A stretch of 64,000 nt of DNA. It comes from Hyphomicrobiales bacterium (GTDB taxonomy: Bacteria; Pseudomonadota; Alphaproteobacteria; Rhizobiales; MH13). The notes under the pieces are model-generated. The model saw nothing but the letters and a program-made list of their open reading frames with translations, did not search any database and was not told the origin of the DNA. Each line of letters begins with the position of its first letter. Positions within the stretch are counted from its first letter, which is position 1. The stretch lies in NCBI GenBank assembly GCA_017642935.1, contig JAEPOK010000001.1:930001-994000 (forward strand). Direction: 5' to 3'. The position numbers were made by a program, and so were the translations under genes. Of this stretch, positions 3,958-51,386 are shown piece by piece.

Positions 3958-4629
3958 TCAGATCAGGCCGCGCAGGCGGAGGCTGTCGCGGATGGTCACG
4001 GCAACCGCGTTTGCTTTTCCGTTGCCGTCGATCAGGATGCAGCGATGCCGATTGGCCTCGCACAAGCGGCGAAACCCCTCTGCGACTTTATCGTGAAAGC
4101 TCTGATCTTCTTTTTCGAAACGATCGTCAGCGTCGCCTTTCGTGGATAGGCGCGCTTGCCGTCGTGTCTTGGCCACGTCCTTGGTGACATCAAGAACATA
4201 GGTGACCTCCGGCATCAGGCCATCGGTGGCAACGGCTTCCAGCTGGTCAATGGTTTCGGTCGGTAGACCACCAACATAGCCTTGGTAGATGCGGGTGGAA
4301 TCAGCAAATCGGTCACAAAGAACCACCTGATCTCGGTCCAGGGCCGGCCTGATGATGTGATCGACATGTTCGCGGCGCGCGGAGGTCAGTAAGCATGCCT
4401 CGGCAAGCGGACCTTTTTCAGCCGCGTGACCGCCTAGCAGAACTTCGCGGACAATGGCTCCGCCTGGCGAACCGCCTGGCTCCCGGGTTTCCAGGACGTC
4501 ATAGCCTTCTGCTCGTAGGGTCTCTCCAAGCATGGCAGCCTGGGTCGATTTACCGGAGCCCTCGCCACCTTCAAATGAAATGAAGAAGCCACCCTTGGGC
4601 TGCTTAGGACTGGTCTTTTTTGCTGCCAT
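3958..4629 (-). CDS. tmk: thymidylate kinase (dTMP kinase)
   Basis: The enzyme phosphorylates dTMP to dTDP, an essential step in dTTP supply. The 223-residue product has the P-loop FEGGEGSGKST at about residues 18-28, the DRFADSTRIYQGY substrate/Mg motif (DR(F/Y) signature), and a LID segment near residue 150 (KTRRQARLS). The start chosen is the ATG 4 bases after the dacA-like stop; the open frame continues upstream but that part is the antisense-like shadow of the dacA-like gene and has no family resemblance. It probably belongs to the rlpA-dac-tmk-holB-metG transcription unit. Confidence 0.95.
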   Translation of the reverse strand: MAAKKTSPKQPKGGFFISFEGGEGSGKSTQAAMLGETLRAEGYDVLETREPGGSPGGAIVREVLLGGHAAEKGPLAEACLLTSARREHVDHIIRPALDRDQVVLCDRFADSTRIYQGYVGGLPTETIDQLEAVATDGLMPEVTYVLDVTKDVAKTRRQARLSTKGDADDRFEKEDQSFHDKVAEGFRRLCEANRHRCILIDGNGKANAVAVTIRDSLRLRGLI

Positions 4630-4633
4630 CAGT

Positions 4634-5866
4634 TCAGAACGTTCCAGCAAAAGAGATTGGCGGAATCCAGCCAAGCACAAGTTCCAAAAACCCGTCACGG
4701 GCCCGTTGCACCATGGATCCCGTTTCCACTGTCGAAGCGGCAACCAGCGGTGTTTCTTGGATGATCGTGCCGTCGCGTTCGACCAAGAGGCGTCCCAACA
4801 GCTGGCCTTCAACAATGGGTGTTGGAATGGGGCTGTCATAGACCACGCGGGCACGCACCCGATCGACACCCTCTTGCGGCAACAAAAGCTCCAGTGCGCC
4901 GTTGTCGGCAGCGACCAGTCCGACCTCCCGAAATGATCCTCCATAGGTTCGTGCAAAGGCGATGGGTTCGCCGGGTTCGGCGACACGAACCGTGCGGAAA
5001 TCCTCATATGCGTAGCGGACCAGGCGGCGTGCCTCATCCACCCTGCCCTCTGGCGTATCGACGCCGGAAAGCGCAAATACAATCCTGCGTCCGTCGCGCT
5101 CAACCGAACCGACGAGGCCATACAGCGCCTCGTCGCTGTAGCCAGCAAACAGGCCGTCGGCGCCTTCGATTTGATTGTAGATCGGATTGCGGTTGCGCTG
5201 GGTGATGTTGTTCCAGGAAAACTGATCCTCGCCGAACATGGCATAAAGATCGGGGTAGGCGTCGATCAGAGCCGTTGTGACCACCACCATATCGCGCACC
5301 GTTGTGCGCATGCCGCGTTCCGGCTGCCCTGTAGCGTTGGAGAATCGGCTGTTGGTCGCGCCAAGTTCCATCGCGAGGTCTGTCATCCGCTGGGCAAAGG
5401 CCCGTTCACTACCGGCGATGCCTTCCGATAGCGCTATAGCGGCATCATTGCCGGAAATGATTGTAAGACCGCGCAAAAGATCGGCGATCGCCACATCGCT
5501 ACCCAACTCGGCGAACATTGCAGCCCGTCCGGACGGTCCGCCACCGCGGCGCCAGGCATCCTCACTGATGGTTAAAGGTGTATCGAGGCTCACCGATCCG
5601 TTCGAAATCGCCTCAAAAACGACGGCAGCGGTCAGCGTTTTGGCTATCGACGCCGGTTCAAAGGCTTCGTCGGCCAGTTGCGTGTAGAGAACTGTGCGTG
5701 AGTTTACATCATAGAGAAAGGCGCGGGGCGCGCGGCTTTCAAAGGCTTGGGCGAGTGCGCCTTCGGCAAAACTAAGACCGGCCAGAAGCATGGCCAGCGT
5801 CGCAAGGGCTGACCAACGTGCCAACGCACGAAGGCTGCGCGCTTGCGTCGCTCTTGCTTGCACCAT
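4634..5866 (-). CDS. DacA-like D-alanyl-D-alanine carboxypeptidase homologue with altered KTG motif
   Basis: This is a 410-residue exported protein of the low-molecular-weight penicillin-binding (S11) family, which normally trims the terminal D-Ala of peptidoglycan stem peptides in the periplasm. A signal peptide covers about residues 1-39 (ALA-Q cleavage). The nucleophile motif is intact as SIAK (Ser73, Lys76) and the second motif as SGN (138-140). The third motif, normally KTG, reads FAG at residues 240-242 (bases 5141-5149) inside the otherwise well-aligned segment GADGLFAGYSDEALYGLVGS. The C-terminus ends in an amphipathic stretch (ELVLGWIPPISF) like the PBP5 membrane anchor. It lies between rlpA and tmk. 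Carboxypeptidase activity is therefore doubtful; a structural or regulatory role is possible. Confidence 0.88.
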   Translation of the reverse strand: MVQARATQARSLRALARWSALATLAMLLAGLSFAEGALAQAFESRAPRAFLYDVNSRTVLYTQLADEAFEPASIAKTLTAAVVFEAISNGSVSLDTPLTISEDAWRRGGGPSGRAAMFAELGSDVAIADLLRGLTIISGNDAAIALSEGIAGSERAFAQRMTDLAMELGATNSRFSNATGQPERGMRTTVRDMVVVTTALIDAYPDLYAMFGEDQFSWNNITQRNRNPIYNQIEGADGLFAGYSDEALYGLVGSVERDGRRIVFALSGVDTPEGRVDEARRLVRYAYEDFRTVRVAEPGEPIAFARTYGGSFREVGLVAADNGALELLLPQEGVDRVRARVVYDSPIPTPIVEGQLLGRLLVERDGTIIQETPLVAASTVETGSMVQRARDGFLELVLGWIPPISFAGTF

Positions 5867-5912: not shown

Positions 5913-7388
5913 TCAACCGTTGGCGTCTGTCACATAGGCGTCGGTGTAGCCTCGGCTGGCCAGCCTGCGCAAGAGGTCGTCTTCAGCTTGGCGCGTCGGT
6001 GCAGCAGCGCGCAAGCGCACCTGCGTCAATTCACGGCCTCGCGATTGAATTGGCTGGGTAACCACCTCTCCCAGGCTCGACAATTCGCTGCGAAGGCGGG
6101 CGACATTGGCTGGATCACCAAAGATGCCAATCTGGATGAGAGCGGTTCGACCGGTCGGAGATCTTTCGGTGGGAGCGAGAGCTAAGACCGGTGCGTTCTG
6201 CGCCTCACTCAAACGGGCAATCGCTTGAGATTGCAGCGCCATGCGGCTGGCGGCATCAAGGGCATTGGCGGATGCTGCACGGTGGGCAAGCTCAATGCGC
6301 GCGGTTTGCGCCAAGGAAGATTGATTACGCTGGGTAAAACCGGTTTCCAAATCGGTCGCCATGAAGCCAATAGCGGCACTTGGGATCGGCGCATTCGGTA
6401 CAAGGCTTGCTGCAGGTTGGGATTGGGCCGGTACGAAGGCAGGCGTCACGGAAGCCTGAGACCCAGCGGGCGGCGCCAGAACCATTGGAGACCCGGCAGG
6501 CGCCACGGCTGGCGTTATCGCCGGCGCGCGCTGGACCTGTGGCTGTTGAGGCTGACCGAACAACGTGTCCAAGAATGAGGTGCGCTGCGGTACGCCCTGC
6601 TGCGGAACCGGCGTTGCGTCCGAGGTCGCCACAAAGGCGGCTTGAGCAGGCGCGGCGACCGGCGTTGGTGCAGGGACCGGCGCGCGGGCAAGCATTATGT
6701 TGGGATCGCCACCATTGATCGGCCGTCCATTGATTTCAGCCGATGCCTCCAGCCAGGCTACATCCTGGCCGTGCAGCGGTGCACGGCCTTCATATTCCAC
6801 GCGGACGCGCGCTATGCCGTCGCCGCGAAATGCCAGGACGTCTGCTGCACGCTTGGATAGGTCGATGATCCGATCATGGGCGAAAGGCCCGCGATCGTTG
6901 ACGCGGACCATAACCGAGCGATCGTTTTCTAGGTTTGTGACACGGACATAACTCGGCAAGGGCAGCGTCGGGTGCGCTGCCGACAGGGTGTATTGGTCAA
7001 AAACCTCGCCATTCGCGGTCAGCCGGCCATGAAACCCGGGTCCGTACCAAGACGCGATGCCGGTGCGGTCGTAATTGGGGTCCTCGCGTGGCGTGTAGAG
7101 CCGACCAGCAATGCGATAGGGGCGGCCAACTTGTGCCCTGCCCCCGCCGCGCGGCAAGTTGGTTTCCTGATCGGTGACCCGTGGGCTGGCCGCCACGCCA
7201 AGCGCAGCATCATTAATGCCATCGCCGCCGCCACCATCGCTGGTCGTCACAGCGTTGCAGCCGGCAAGCGTCAACGCGCAAACGCCTGATACGGCGACCG
7301 CACGACCAAAGGGCGTTCGAACAGGGAAAGCAGCTGCGTTGCGCGCAGCCGAAAAGGCGCCTGAAAGCGCCGTTAACCATTTCATCAT
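5913..7388 (-). CDS. rlpA: RlpA-type lipoprotein, septal lytic transglycosylase family, with SPOR domain
   Basis: RlpA proteins act on peptidoglycan at the division septum. The product is about 491 residues. A hydrophobic signal ends in the lipobox LTLAGC, so it should be lipid-anchored. The double-psi beta-barrel domain follows, with the family motif GIASWYGPGFHGRLTANGE and the later FAHDRIIDLSKRAA. A long Pro/Ala/Gln-rich linker then leads to a C-terminal SPOR domain beginning about ALIQIGIFGDPANV, which binds denuded glycan strands. I chose one of two adjacent ATG codons near 7385-7388 because the further 23 upstream codons do not look like protein. It heads the run rlpA-dac-tmk-holB-metG. 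Confidence 0.9.
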   Translation of the reverse strand: MMKWLTALSGAFSAARNAAAFPVRTPFGRAVAVSGVCALTLAGCNAVTTSDGGGGDGINDAALGVAASPRVTDQETNLPRGGGRAQVGRPYRIAGRLYTPREDPNYDRTGIASWYGPGFHGRLTANGEVFDQYTLSAAHPTLPLPSYVRVTNLENDRSVMVRVNDRGPFAHDRIIDLSKRAADVLAFRGDGIARVRVEYEGRAPLHGQDVAWLEASAEINGRPINGGDPNIMLARAPVPAPTPVAAPAQAAFVATSDATPVPQQGVPQRTSFLDTLFGQPQQPQVQRAPAITPAVAPAGSPMVLAPPAGSQASVTPAFVPAQSQPAASLVPNAPIPSAAIGFMATDLETGFTQRNQSSLAQTARIELAHRAASANALDAASRMALQSQAIARLSEAQNAPVLALAPTERSPTGRTALIQIGIFGDPANVARLRSELSSLGEVVTQPIQSRGRELTQVRLRAAAPTRQAEDDLLRRLASRGYTDAYVTDANG

Positions 7389-7540
7389 CACGCCATACTC
7401 GATACAAACTGGCGGCCACACCGGCAAGCACAATAAGCGGCTTGTTCGATGCGGCATACTTCACAAACAGTGAAACTCTGCTGCCAAAGTGCAGCATAAG
7501 CGTGAAGAGGATGTTAAGTCAGCGCGCTTCTACGGGCGCA

Positions 7541-9916
7541 TTACTCGCCGTAGGGGATCCAAATGTTTTTGATTTCACACGCTTTTCGCAGCCATTCGGG
7601 GCCTTCTGCCGCAGGCGCAAACCAGTCGATCGCCCGCCCATAGTCGACAAAGGTGCGCTTCAAATTGCCAGCCGATAGCGCTTCGACCTTGGTCGATAGC
7701 TCGGGCGTACCAAAGGCCCACACCGCATCGACGTCTGCGTGGCTTGCCAGAACCTCAGCCAAGTCCAGCGAGTCGCCGGTGACGATATTGAGAACGCCAC
7801 CTGGAAGATCCGACGTTTCGAGCACCGAGTAGAAATCGGTCATCGCCAGTGGATTGGCAGTGCTTGGCACCAATACCACGCGATTGCCCATGGCGATCAG
7901 GGGGGCTGCGAGGCTGATCGCGCCGAGCAAAGGCGCTTCATCGGGGCACACCACGCCGACCACGCCAACCGGTTCGTTCATTGCCAGGGCAACACCGCGC
8001 AAGGGCGGAACGTGCACTCGGCCATCATTCTTGTCGGCATAGGCCGCATAGGTGAACAGGCGATCGATGGCGGCATCAACCTCTTTTGCAGCCTTTGAGG
8101 TCGTCGTTCCAGCGACACTGGAAAAGCGCGCGGCAAACTCGTCGGCGCGCGCCGACAGGTTTTCGGCGATGTAATAGATCACTTGTGCACGGTTATGTTC
8201 AGTTGCAGCCGCCCAACCAGTTGCTTTGCGCGCCGCGGCAACGGCGTTGCGGATGTCTTTGCGATTGCCAACACCGACGTCGCCGATTACCTCCCCCTTG
8301 GGTGAAACAACGGGACGCGAATAGTTGCCATCCGGGCGCGCTTGCTTGCCGCCGATGTAGAGTTTGGCGGTGCGGTCGATGGTCGGCAGGTCAAACCCGC
8401 CCGCTTGCAGCTTGGGTTCGGGCAGACCTGTCGACGGACGCTGTTTGGCATTCTTCCAGAATTTGGGCTTCAGATATTCAAACGCCCCTTCCCGGCCCCC
8501 TTCCCGGCCAAAACCGGATTCCTTCTTGCCGCCAAAGCCGGCGGAAGCATCGAACATGTTGGTGGCGTTCACCCACACCACGCCGCTGTCGAGCTTGGCT
8601 GCCACGTTGAGCGCCAGCCCAATCGTTTCCGACCAAATGGAGGCGGCAAGGCCGTAGCGGGAATGATTGGCGAGCTGCACGGCTTCATCAGGTGTGCGGA
8701 AGGTCATCGACACGGCGACTGGGCCAAAAATTTCTTCGGTCGCAACCGTCGAGGACGTGCCGACATTGGATAGAAGCGTCGGCGGAAAATAGCTACCGGC
8801 TGTGGGAATAGAGCCAGAAGGTTGGTGCAGTGTCGCGCCTTCCTTCACGCCCTGGTCGACAAGCCTTTTGATGCGATCCAGTTGAACCGGGGCGACGATG
8901 GCGCCCATATCGATGGCTTTGTCGAGCGGGGCGCCGACCCGCAATGTCTCCATGCGACGGGTCAGCTTAGCAATGAAGGCGTCGGCAATGCCCTCATGCA
9001 GCAAGAGTCGCGATCCAGCGCAGCACACTTGGCCCTGGTTGAACCAGATGGCGTCAACGACGCCTTCCACAGCGCCATCCAAATCAGCATCGTCAAAGAC
9101 AATGAACGGTGACTTGCCACCCAGCTCCAGCGTTAGCGACTTTCCGCTTCCTGCCGTTTGTTTGCGGATGATCCGGCCGACTTCCGTAGAACCGGTGAAG
9201 GCCACTTTGTCCACATCGGGATGATCAACGAGCGCCGCGCCCGTGTCGCCCTCGCCTGTGACGATGTTGAGGACACCAGCGGGAAGACCAGCGGCTTGCG
9301 CCAGTTCGGCGATAAGCAAGGCGGTAAGCGAGGTGAATTCGGCGGGTTTCAAGACCAATGTGTTGCCGAGCGCGAGCGCCGGCGCGATTTTCCAAGCCAG
9401 CATGAGAACCGGAAAATTCCACGGGATGATCTGCCCGACGACGCCGACCGGGTCATAGTCGGGGAACTCTTTGTCCTGCAGCTGCGCCCAACCAGCATGA
9501 TGGTAGAAATGGCGTGCGGCGAGCGGCACATCAATGTCGCGCGTCTCGCGGATCGGCTTGCCATTATCCAGCGCCTCAATGACGGCGATCAGCCGGGCGT
9601 TGCGCTGGATCGAGCGGGCAAGCGCATAGAGGTGACGCGCGCGCGCATGGCCTGGCAGCGCCGCCCATTTTTTTTGTGCTTTGCGCGCAGCTTTGACCGC
9701 AGCATCCACATCGTCCGACGACCCTTGCGCAAGCTTGGCCAGATGCTCACCAGATGCCGGGGCGTGGCTGTCGAAGGTGGTCGAACCTTGGACGAATTTG
9801 CCATCGATGAAATGGCCGAAATTGGCGTCGTGCTTGGCGATCCAGGCGCGCGCATCACCATCAGCCTCAGGCGCGGGGCCGTAATCCATCGTGTCGAAAT
9901 AGTCAGCAACGCTCAT
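7541..9916 (-). CDS. aldehyde dehydrogenase with a second, truncated ALDH-like domain
   Basis: The 791-residue product is about one and a half ALDH lengths. The first unit (roughly residues 30-490) is complete: the cofactor segment IIPWNFP, the general base Glu264 in LTLELGGKSPF, and the catalytic Cys298 in NQGQVCCAGSR. The second unit (about 510-791) resembles the NAD-binding half of an ALDH but ends before any catalytic Cys, and its GSTEVG and LELGGK equivalents are replaced (AFGTPEL, FVDYG). NAD(P)-dependent oxidation of an aldehyde is expected from the first unit. The start lies 7 bases after deoC; deoC makes acetaldehyde, so oxidising that product is a reasonable role. An upstream TTG (9931) is a less likely start. 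Confidence 0.92.
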   Translation of the reverse strand: MSVADYFDTMDYGPAPEADGDARAWIAKHDANFGHFIDGKFVQGSTTFDSHAPASGEHLAKLAQGSSDDVDAAVKAARKAQKKWAALPGHARARHLYALARSIQRNARLIAVIEALDNGKPIRETRDIDVPLAARHFYHHAGWAQLQDKEFPDYDPVGVVGQIIPWNFPVLMLAWKIAPALALGNTLVLKPAEFTSLTALLIAELAQAAGLPAGVLNIVTGEGDTGAALVDHPDVDKVAFTGSTEVGRIIRKQTAGSGKSLTLELGGKSPFIVFDDADLDGAVEGVVDAIWFNQGQVCCAGSRLLLHEGIADAFIAKLTRRMETLRVGAPLDKAIDMGAIVAPVQLDRIKRLVDQGVKEGATLHQPSGSIPTAGSYFPPTLLSNVGTSSTVATEEIFGPVAVSMTFRTPDEAVQLANHSRYGLAASIWSETIGLALNVAAKLDSGVVWVNATNMFDASAGFGGKKESGFGREGGREGAFEYLKPKFWKNAKQRPSTGLPEPKLQAGGFDLPTIDRTAKLYIGGKQARPDGNYSRPVVSPKGEVIGDVGVGNRKDIRNAVAAARKATGWAAATEHNRAQVIYYIAENLSARADEFAARFSSVAGTTTSKAAKEVDAAIDRLFTYAAYADKNDGRVHVPPLRGVALAMNEPVGVVGVVCPDEAPLLGAISLAAPLIAMGNRVVLVPSTANPLAMTDFYSVLETSDLPGGVLNIVTGDSLDLAEVLASHADVDAVWAFGTPELSTKVEALSAGNLKRTFVDYGRAIDWFAPAAEGPEWLRKACEIKNIWIPYGE

Positions 9917-9923
9917 AATCGAC

Positions 9924-10931
9924 TCATCCAATCGGGTGGCGGAGGAAGGCGGAATAGGCGCCGGTCACGTGATGTTCAAGCTGACGTTCAATGTCGGCGA
10001 GCAGACTGGAGGCACCAATGCGGAAGAGATCGGGTTCGAGCCATTCCCGGCCAAGCTCTTCTTTCATCAGGAATTGATAGTTGAGCACATCTTTGGCGGT
10101 GGAGATGCCACCGGCAGGCTTGTAGCCAACCTTCAAACCGGTGCGCTCTTCATAGGCGCGGATACAGCGCAGCATGGTCAGCGATACCGCCAAGGTTGCG
10201 TTGACGCCTTCTTTGCCGGTGGACGTCTTGATGAAATCGGCGCCGGCCATCATGCAGACCAAAGAGGCGCGCGCAACGTTGCGCAGCGTTTTGATGTCGC
10301 CGGTCGCCAGGATCGCTTTCACATGGGCATCGCCACAGGCTTCGCGGTACTCCAGCATTTCGTCGTAAAGCGCCTGCCAATTGCCGGTCAGCACATGTTC
10401 GCGTGTGATGACGATGTCGATTTCCTGTGCGCCGTCGGCCACCGACTCTTTGATTTCCTGAACTTTCAAATGGTGCGGCGAGAGCCCGGCGGGAAAGCCG
10501 GTCGAGACAGCCGCGACGGGGATGCCGGTGCCCTGTAAGGCATCAACGGCCGTGGCAACAAAGCGATGATACACGCAGACCGCGCCGGTTGTGAGGTTGC
10601 GCTCGGCCATGCCCAGCGCTTCAAGCAAATCCGGTCGGACCGGCCGTGCGGCCTTGGCGCAAAGACGGCGAACCCGTCCTCCGGTGTCATCGCCGTTGAG
10701 CGTGGTGAGATCGATGCAAGTCAACGCCTTGAGGAGCCATGCAGCCTGCGCATCTTTCTTCACCGTGCGGCGTCCGGGGAGTGTCGCGACACGCCGTTCG
10801 GTTGCCGACAGATTGACGCGAACGTCCCGCACCCAGCCAAGATCGAGCGGCATCGCCTCGTTGCGAGGATGATGCGGCGCGTTATGACCAAGGTGGGCAT
10901 CTGGCGTGATGGGTGTGACATTGGATGTCAT
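9924..10931 (-). CDS. deoC: deoxyribose-phosphate aldolase
   Basis: This class I aldolase cleaves 2-deoxyribose-5-phosphate to glyceraldehyde-3-phosphate and acetaldehyde in deoxynucleoside catabolism. The Schiff-base lysine is in ADFIKTSTGKEG and the second conserved lysine in VGYKPAGGIS. At 335 residues it belongs to the long DeoC form, with about 80 extra N-terminal residues compared with E. coli. The next gene on the same strand is the aldehyde dehydrogenase, which could remove the acetaldehyde. The gene stands alone otherwise: no thymidine phosphorylase or phosphopentomutase is nearby. Confidence 0.96.
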   Translation of the reverse strand: MTSNVTPITPDAHLGHNAPHHPRNEAMPLDLGWVRDVRVNLSATERRVATLPGRRTVKKDAQAAWLLKALTCIDLTTLNGDDTGGRVRRLCAKAARPVRPDLLEALGMAERNLTTGAVCVYHRFVATAVDALQGTGIPVAAVSTGFPAGLSPHHLKVQEIKESVADGAQEIDIVITREHVLTGNWQALYDEMLEYREACGDAHVKAILATGDIKTLRNVARASLVCMMAGADFIKTSTGKEGVNATLAVSLTMLRCIRAYEERTGLKVGYKPAGGISTAKDVLNYQFLMKEELGREWLEPDLFRIGASSLLADIERQLEHHVTGAYSAFLRHPIG

Positions 10932-50018: not shown

Positions 50019-51386
50019 ATGGGTGGTAGTGTGTTGCGTAGAGTATCGTTGGTGCAGGCTTGGCTTGCACTGCTTGTTGCTGTTGGCGTCATGTTCGGTT
50101 CGTTTTCCGGACCTTCTTCGGCCAACGCCAATCCCCGTTATGCGGCGCTGGTCGTTGACGCGCGCAATGGCGAGGTCCTTTTCTCCCGACATGCCAATGC
50201 GCCGCGGTTCCCGGCATCGCTGACAAAAGTGATGACGCTCTACATTCTGTTTGAAGAGCTGGAGGCTGGCCGCCTTTCGCTCGATACGCGCATGAACGTA
50301 TCAGCGCATGCCCAATCCCAACCGCCTTCCGAACTCGGATTGCGTCAGGGTCAAACGATCACTGTCCGCGATGCGATGCTCTCGCTGGTCACGAAATCGG
50401 CCAACGATGCCGCATCGGTTGTTGCTGAACATATTGGTGGCACCGAATGGAGCTTTGCCCAGCGCATGACCGAAACGGCGCGCCGCATTGGCATGAGCAA
50501 CACAACGTTCCGAAATGCCTCCGGCCTGCCCAACCGCGAACAGCGCACCACCGCCCACGACATGGTTTTGATGGGACGTGCGATCTATGAGCGCTTTCCA
50601 CAGCGCTACCAGGTCTTCTCGACCACCAGTTTCCGTTATGCTGGCCGCACCTACCGCAATCACAACCGTCTTCTTGGCACGGTGCGCGGCGTTGATGGCA
50701 TCAAAACCGGCTTCATCCGAGCGTCCGGCTTCAACCTGCTATCCTCGGTCAATGATCGTGGCCGCCACATTGTTGCTGTTGTGATGGGTGGACGCACTGG
50801 CGCGAGCCGTAACGCCCATATGCGTGACCTGATTGCTCGGCATCTGCCACAGGCATCCACCGGTCCACGTACCGCTCGCCTGCTGGTTGCGCGTGCGCAG
50901 TTCAATCCACCCTCGCCTGTGCCGCATCCAGCAGCCCTGCCTGCGGTTGCCTTTGCCGCGGCGAACGCAATGATGGCGTCGACGCCGCCGCAACCATTGC
51001 CCGCACCGCTGGCCGCCGTTGAAGTGGCGACGGTTTCCGCACCAGCTTCGGCAAGCATGGTGGCAACGCATTCCCCTGCAGCGCCAACTGCGACCGCGTC
51101 CGCGCCAGGTGGGATGCAGCTCGGCAGCGTTCCGGTGGATGGATGGACCATCCAAATCGGCGCTTTACCGAGCCAAGAGGCCGCTGTGAATATGTTGGTG
51201 CAAGCCAGGGGACGGGTGAACGATCTGACCGCGCGCACGCCCTACACGCAAAGCATTCAATCCAACGGCGCGACCCTTTGGCGTGCCAGGTTCGGCGGGT
51301 TCAACAGCCGAGACCGCGCACAGGCTGCCTGTAGCGCCTTGGAAGCGCAAAGCTTTGCTTGCCTCGCGGTCCGCCCAGACCGCTAA
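50019..51386 (+). CDS. D-alanyl-D-alanine carboxypeptidase with SPOR domain
   Basis: The 455-residue exported enzyme has a signal peptide (about 1-37, ending SANA). It has the full S11 motif set: SLTK (Ser67, Lys70), the SxN motif in LVTKSANDAAS (about 128) and KTG in GIKTGFIRASGF (about 228). It should therefore remove terminal D-Ala from peptidoglycan. A Pro/Ala-rich linker leads to a C-terminal SPOR domain (WTIQIGALPSQEAAVNML..), which targets it to septal peptidoglycan. This contrasts with the motif-defective DacA-like protein at 4634-5866. AGGA lies 6 bases before the ATG. Confidence 0.95.
   Translation: MGGSVLRRVSLVQAWLALLVAVGVMFGSFSGPSSANANPRYAALVVDARNGEVLFSRHANAPRFPASLTKVMTLYILFEELEAGRLSLDTRMNVSAHAQSQPPSELGLRQGQTITVRDAMLSLVTKSANDAASVVAEHIGGTEWSFAQRMTETARRIGMSNTTFRNASGLPNREQRTTAHDMVLMGRAIYERFPQRYQVFSTTSFRYAGRTYRNHNRLLGTVRGVDGIKTGFIRASGFNLLSSVNDRGRHIVAVVMGGRTGASRNAHMRDLIARHLPQASTGPRTARLLVARAQFNPPSPVPHPAALPAVAFAAANAMMASTPPQPLPAPLAAVEVATVSAPASASMVATHSPAAPTATASAPGGMQLGSVPVDGWTIQIGALPSQEAAVNMLVQARGRVNDLTARTPYTQSIQSNGATLWRARFGGFNSRDRAQAACSALEAQSFACLAVRPDR

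Follow-up and report, generated by a model that had tools for sequence, protein, structure and literature searches.

The closest known counterparts of the protein treated here are PBP5 (DacA), PBP6 and DacC of the gammaproteobacteria. In S11 enzymes the Lys and the Thr of the third motif, KTG, hold the substrate carboxylate, and some enzymes tolerate changes in their motifs, a point that weighs against equating motif loss with loss of activity. The DacA protein encoded in the window, i.e. the whole stretch of 64,000 nucleotides that was analyzed, resembles PBP5, PBP6 and DacC in its fold, its two domains, the motifs SxxK and SxN, the C-terminal helix and the neighbouring rlpA gene. It differs from them in that KTG is replaced by FAG, and other lineages of the order Hyphomicrobiales have also lost SxxK or SxN.

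Two further systems can be compared. CrbA of Caulobacter, which combines an S11 and a SPOR part and, according to passages of the articles listed below, binds Bocillin and interacts with DipM, shares the S11 family, but its architecture matches that of a second S11 protein of the window, whereas the rlpA-linked DacA possesses a PBP5_C domain and no SPOR domain. The inactive LytM factors DipM and EnvC belong to a family unrelated to DacA; the likeness proposed here, with a putative partner, is that of a dead hydrolase steering live ones. Statements on other systems are taken from passages of PMC7327166, PMC9712689, PMC6113214, PMC10336132, PMC9430164, PMC2605481, PMC13046382, PMC9790009, PMC11527210 and PMC4281109. 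In the open-licence PMC literature, no report on the loss of active-site motifs at the dacA locus was found.

The dacA locus of the window and its genus

The following features of the window are relevant.

3958..4629, minus strand: tmk, downstream of dacA, 4 bp past its stop
4634..5866, minus strand: dacA, PBP5-type S11 protein with KTG changed to FAG (translation, 410 aa; Pfam; AlphaFold2 model)
4673..4714, minus strand: C-terminal helix, residues 385-398, candidate membrane anchor (AlphaFold2 model)
4724..4999, minus strand: PBP5_C domain, residues 290-381 (Pfam)
5141..5149, minus strand: third motif, KTG changed to FAG, residues 240-242 (codons TTT GCT GGC)
5447..5455, minus strand: second motif SxN, here SGN, residues 138-140 (translation; SGND at 138-141)
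5639..5650, minus strand: first motif SxxK, here SIAK, residues 73-76 (translation)
5913..7457, minus strand: rlpA (DPBB and SPOR domains), active-site type residues retained, upstream of dacA with a gap of 46 bp
50019..51386, plus strand: second S11 protein with an FtsN/SPOR-like C-terminal part (CrbA-like), motifs intact (SLTK, SAND, KTG)

A preliminary description of this DNA had reported a DacA-like protein between rlpA and tmk with SxxK and SxN retained and FAG in place of KTG, and a complete second S11 enzyme at 50019. Translation confirmed the three motifs, both neighbours were found as described, and the second enzyme is complete. The dacA frame is open throughout, and the region of the third motif reads GADGLFAGYSDEALYGLVGS. 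Pfam assigned Peptidase_S11 to residues 41-265 (170.5 bits, cut-off 27.6) and PBP5_C to residues 290-381 (47.4 bits, cut-off 21.2). The AlphaFold2 model (pLDDT 90.0, pTM 0.82) superimposes on PBP5 4k91 with a Z of 38.8 and an rmsd of 3.2 over 341 residues (37% identity), and it fits PBP5 of P. aeruginosa as well as PBP5 and PBP6 of E. coli over nearly the entire exported part. The catalytic-domain fold, the PBP5_C domain and the rlpA-dacA locus (with tmk in Alphaproteobacteria), by which an S11/PBP5 (DacA) protein by descent was defined, are all present; of the motifs of an active DD-carboxypeptidase, SxxK and SxN are present and KTG is not. As for the C-terminal amphipathic segment of that description, a helix at residues 385-398 is predicted as a candidate anchor, but its hydrophobic moment of 0.35 (shuffle mean 0.26) was attained by 24% of the shuffles, and an amphipathic anchor was dropped as a strong argument.

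None of the four genomes of the genus that were analyzed has KTG, so that the case which would have spoken against the preliminary description, orthologues all with KTG, did not arise. Its Lys and Thr are missing in all of them (FAG, FAG, VAG and MAG), and position 241 is always Ala, whereas the exact sequence FAG, for which a comparison of orthologues had been suggested, is found in only two. The second FAG genome (G002, locus L005) encodes a DacA with 71% identity to that of the window. Furthermore, the Ser of SxN is gone in the three genomes other than that of the window. Two named records, Cohaesibacteraceae PL25a_bin.105 (L175, FAG) and Devosiaceae MH13 (L176, MAG), may be identical with genomes G002 and G001, respectively. 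The single genome analyzed of a sister genus reads LxN, and its contig stops ahead of the third motif. Because replacements of KTG are common to several genomes and the frame is open, a frameshift, which had already been denied, or a base-call error is ruled out.

Motif decay across Hyphomicrobiales

The main point beyond the preliminary description is that, as judged from the typed orthologues, the decay of the active site arose many times in Hyphomicrobiales. A match was obtained in 394 genomes of the order, which its named relatives identify as Hyphomicrobiales; 161 loci were taken from them, mostly one per genus with the best matches first, and 160 were typed. L016, with SLTK and LAND as its first two motifs, was excluded, as its contig does not extend to KTG. 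The codes f and g denote families and genera internal to this analysis, and names were taken solely from named records. A decayed active site was found in 57 of the 160 typed orthologues, which belong to 34 of 124 genera and, at the family level, to 13 of 44. Two genera were scored as mixed; in the case of g135, the sole reason is a second, unlinked intact copy (L088). Among the decayed rows, 33 lack the Ser or the Lys of SxxK. Within the 160 rows, SxxK has lost its Ser in 20 and its Lys in 13, SxN its Ser in 41 and its Asn in 11, and KTG its Lys in 44, its Thr in 27 and its Gly in seven.

Several lineages carry signatures of their own. All eight rows of g79 and g130 (f16) read AxxK/AxN/STG. 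In f11, NxxK and an Ala for the Gly of KTG occur in six of six rows, together with YxN or HxN (third motif xLA or xMA). KTG is retained in g35 of f34, with SxxT in 12 of 12 rows, and the same combination occurs in the named records of Hansschlegelia, Methylopila and Chenggangzhangella. The signature of f13 is SxxL/IxY/MVG, and f41 mostly shows NxN plus GAG, VAG or VSG. Eight of ten named Mesorhizobium records are decayed (AVG or AIG, mostly AxN) and two are intact; Brucella reads GTG and Rhizobium sp. Root1212 FxN and VTG. The records of Bradyrhizobium, Methylobacterium and Bauldia are intact wherever the motifs are readable; in 15 named-record rows the predicted start lies within or behind SxxK, and only the remaining motifs were scored. 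Intact and decayed genera occur side by side within each of the families f14, f16, f23, f30, f35 and f42. An additional Rhizobiaceae-type sample of 30 genomes, tallied by eye and kept apart from the 160 typed rows, contained 28 genomes with a copy at the locus, 15 of them decayed and 13 intact. Two genomes of the protelomerase-bearing genus g296 read SLAK/NxN/GLG at the dacA locus. The protelomerase match (PDB 4dwp, which we take to be the enzyme of A. tumefaciens) suggests that g296 is probably Agrobacterium or a close relative.

No replacement motif is shared in place of KTG among the typed rows of the order; the replacements differ among the lineages, which rules out a novel motif substituting for KTG. 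Rows with the loss of a single residue (ETG, GTG, MTG, QTG or SxxT) always lack the Lys of KTG or that of SxxK, so that the loss of one of these two lysines may often be the first step of decay.

A mix-up with paralogues is ruled out by the linkage of the locus. The tmk gene lies downstream in 56 of 56 decayed versus 95 of 98 intact rows (151 of 154 in the whole order), and rlpA upstream in 54 of 57 versus 89 of 102. In other alphaproteobacterial orders, tmk follows at 58 of 60 loci and rlpA precedes at 49 of 57. According to the passages cited, dacA adjoins rlpA in E. coli and P. aeruginosa, too. Adjacency to rlpA is hence the ancestral gene order and provides no evidence for a new partnership of DacA and RlpA.

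Of 142 genomes searched in these other orders, 60 contributed an orthologue that was typed. SxxK and KTG are intact in all 60 and SxN in 59, the remaining one reading SGGD. The difference between 34 of 124 genera in the order and 0 of 60 in the others has a Fisher P of 3e-7, or 5e-6 when the SGGD row is counted as decayed, in a test that ignores kinship. Within this sample, motif decay is confined to Hyphomicrobiales.

The number of losses was estimated from a tree of 173 rows, in which the motif columns were blanked and which was rooted with 12 rows from other orders. Without regain, at least eight losses of any kind are required, and counted per residue the nucleophilic Ser was lost six times, the Lys of SxxK twice, the Ser of SxN 16 times and the Lys of KTG nine times. 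Unordered parsimony gave just seven changes, and a FastTree tree with 213 rows ten. The decayed families f1, f11, f13, f24, f34, f41 and f50 as well as part of f16 form one cluster, which may be due to long-branch attraction or to an old common start; the separation of f16 from its own intact members indicates some long-branch attraction.

Maintenance, loss and paralogues

The decayed gene is maintained by purifying selection in the lineages in which dN/dS could be measured. Median values for dacA, tmk and rlpA were 0.28, 0.36 and 0.26 in g35 of f34, 0.25, 0.22 and 0.25 in g79 of f16, and 0.13, 0.11 and 0.18 in Mesorhizobium plus one Aquamicrobium; a single pair of f41 gave 0.06 for each of the three genes. 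Intact groups ranged from 0.09 to 0.53. The pairs behind these values are not independent of each other, and those of the window genus are too distant for an estimate of dS. The mean share of the top residue in domain 2 was 0.504 in decayed versus 0.509 in intact rows, and in the C-terminal tail 0.535 versus 0.481. A raised conservation of W218-I221-Q223 and the C-terminal tail in decayed rows, considered as a hint of a new interface, vanished in comparison with intact rows of the same clade.

DacA may also be lost altogether. All ten sampled genomes of f18 and all three of f45 gave only matches at the level of S11 paralogues and no DacA of the rlpA-tmk type. The linked dacA of genome G562 (L369) reads ETG and has a change of frame between query residues 302 and 325; by its sequence it appears to be a copy on its way to loss. 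In view of these absences and the broken L369, some of the decay may reflect nothing more than relaxed selection.

The S11 paralogues in the window genus, its family and other decayed lineages are intact in 29 of 29 cases. The window genome has a third S11 protein, with intact motifs, on contig 2. The protein at 50019 is a candidate supplier of DD-carboxypeptidase activity. Additionally, four Rhizobiaceae-type genomes, G348, G557, G558 and G562, possess an extra DacA with KTG that is unlinked to rlpA or tmk (L088, L354, L359 and L356, respectively), and their linked copies are decayed (ETG or GTG). The unlinked copies look like replacements through a transferred or duplicated gene, which fits the replacement of a lost activity.

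It is unlikely, though well within consideration, that selection on the old locus was merely relaxed, with S11-SPOR paralogues or a second DacA taking over and the gene decaying neutrally toward loss. The missing dacA genes of f18 and f45, the broken frame of L369, the second intact copies in four genomes and the graded series of motif losses are what such a process would leave behind. Neutral decay is contradicted by medians of 0.06 to 0.28 in the decayed groups, similar to those of rlpA and tmk, by lost motifs that are fixed throughout clades, and by columns of domain 2 and the C-terminal tail that are conserved as in intact rows. An enzyme that has changed its reaction or substrate, acting for instance on a different terminal D-amino acid or as endopeptidase or esterase, and works with SxxK, SGN and F-A-G or another residue is improbable. 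The window protein has kept nucleophile and base, and the Ala at position 241 is found in all four genomes of the genus, but the Ser of SxN is lost in its sister genomes, the nucleophile itself disappeared six times in other lineages, and the replacements have no motif in common. That the pattern arose from faulty assemblies or from a comparison of paralogues is very improbable and already refuted by the shared replacements: many of the sampled genomes are metagenome assemblies, but the losses recur in several genomes and in named isolate records (Mesorhizobium, Brucella, Hansschlegelia), the frames are open, and linkage to tmk holds in nearly all rows of the order.

Possible role of the decayed DacA

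The window protein is quite probably a maintained pseudo-carboxypeptidase of a kind that evolved repeatedly and retains a non-catalytic job. For the window DacA, the loss of carboxypeptidase function appears to be the best reading, since without the Lys and the Thr of KTG it would not trim D-Ala-D-Ala stem peptides. Having kept SxxK and SGN, it may still be acylated by beta-lactams. Malhotra and Nicholas (1992, cited in PMC9430164) are said to have reported that the K213R exchange in E. coli PBP5 abolishes the carboxypeptidase activity and leaves penicillin binding in place. If penicillin binding survives in K213R, a Bocillin-positive FAG protein would not refute the loss of activity.

According to this model, the housekeeping PBP5 of the order, an exported two-domain protein encoded at the rlpA-dacA-tmk locus, would have lost its trimming activity, the one gene being disarmed separately in several lineages and then held by purifying selection. 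Two other proteins, the third S11 protein and the CrbA-like one with S11 and SPOR parts, would now supply the DD-carboxypeptidase activity. What is left to DacA would be a non-catalytic task, most likely that of a periplasmic assembly or regulatory factor in the zone of growth or division. There it may cooperate with RlpA, a lytic transglycosylase, much as amidases and transglycosylases are assisted by inactive LytM factors. The preliminary description had envisaged a putative peptidoglycan-binding scaffold or a partner of RlpA. In all 54 RlpA proteins of decayed rows, the D and R of VNDRGP, presumably the catalytic residues, are kept, and a parallel loss of the RlpA active site beside a dead dacA was not seen.

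Several passages in the literature touch on such a role. In a Tn-seq study of A. tumefaciens, insertions in Atu1499 (annotated as DD-carboxypeptidase) and in Atu1500 (RlpA) were reported to be detrimental in the absence of yejABEF (PMC9790009). From its number beside Atu1500, Atu1499 would correspond to the dacA locus of this analysis; if it reads NxN and GLG itself, a dead DacA would have a phenotype in common with RlpA, which would bear indirectly on a control of RlpA by DacA. Other passages name E. coli DacA, like RlpA, as a possible partner of the N-terminal domain of FtsK, and describe that ftsK44 is suppressed by the loss of either DacA or RlpA; in P. aeruginosa, two class C PBPs are mentioned among the strongest binders of RlpA. 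LD-crosslinks are described as abundant in the wall of the order, and A. tumefaciens as lacking RodA and PBP2. Speculatively, these traits might be the reason why DacA was free to change.

Only tentatively, we suggest the wider reading that numerous parallel changes made the main PBP5 of Hyphomicrobiales a non-catalytic partner of RlpA, that the structural job of PBP5 is ancestral, and that unipolar growth rich in LD-crosslinks made its catalysis dispensable. If this was the case, the structural job was always present and is masked in model organisms by the enzymatic one, and a second sort of dead wall hydrolase acting as a regulator would stand beside the LytM factors. On the main reading, that of a pseudo-carboxypeptidase, genes annotated as DD-carboxypeptidase would lack this activity in most Mesorhizobium, in Brucella, in Hansschlegelia and Methylopila and probably in relatives of Agrobacterium, and phenotypes ascribed there to peptide trimming would have to be explained otherwise. 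Repeated inactivation in nature separates a catalytic from a non-catalytic role of PBP5, which is hard to settle in E. coli, and orthologues that are intact in one lineage and dead in another, while occupying the same locus, offer paired natural variants for testing these roles.

Two minor observations concern the DacA protein and the neighbourhood of the locus. Residue P111 of the window DacA (5534-5536) lies in the loop behind helix 102-108, and Pro is found at this position in 91% of 34 decayed genera. In two nested clades, the intact genera have it in 44% (48 genera) and 20% (25 genera), a difference that remained in the above comparison by clade. Farther along, on the minus strand at 7541-9931, the translation shows what we take to be a protein of two halves that each resemble an aldehyde dehydrogenase; the second half apparently lacks the catalytic Cys, and a presumably deoC-like gene adjoins.
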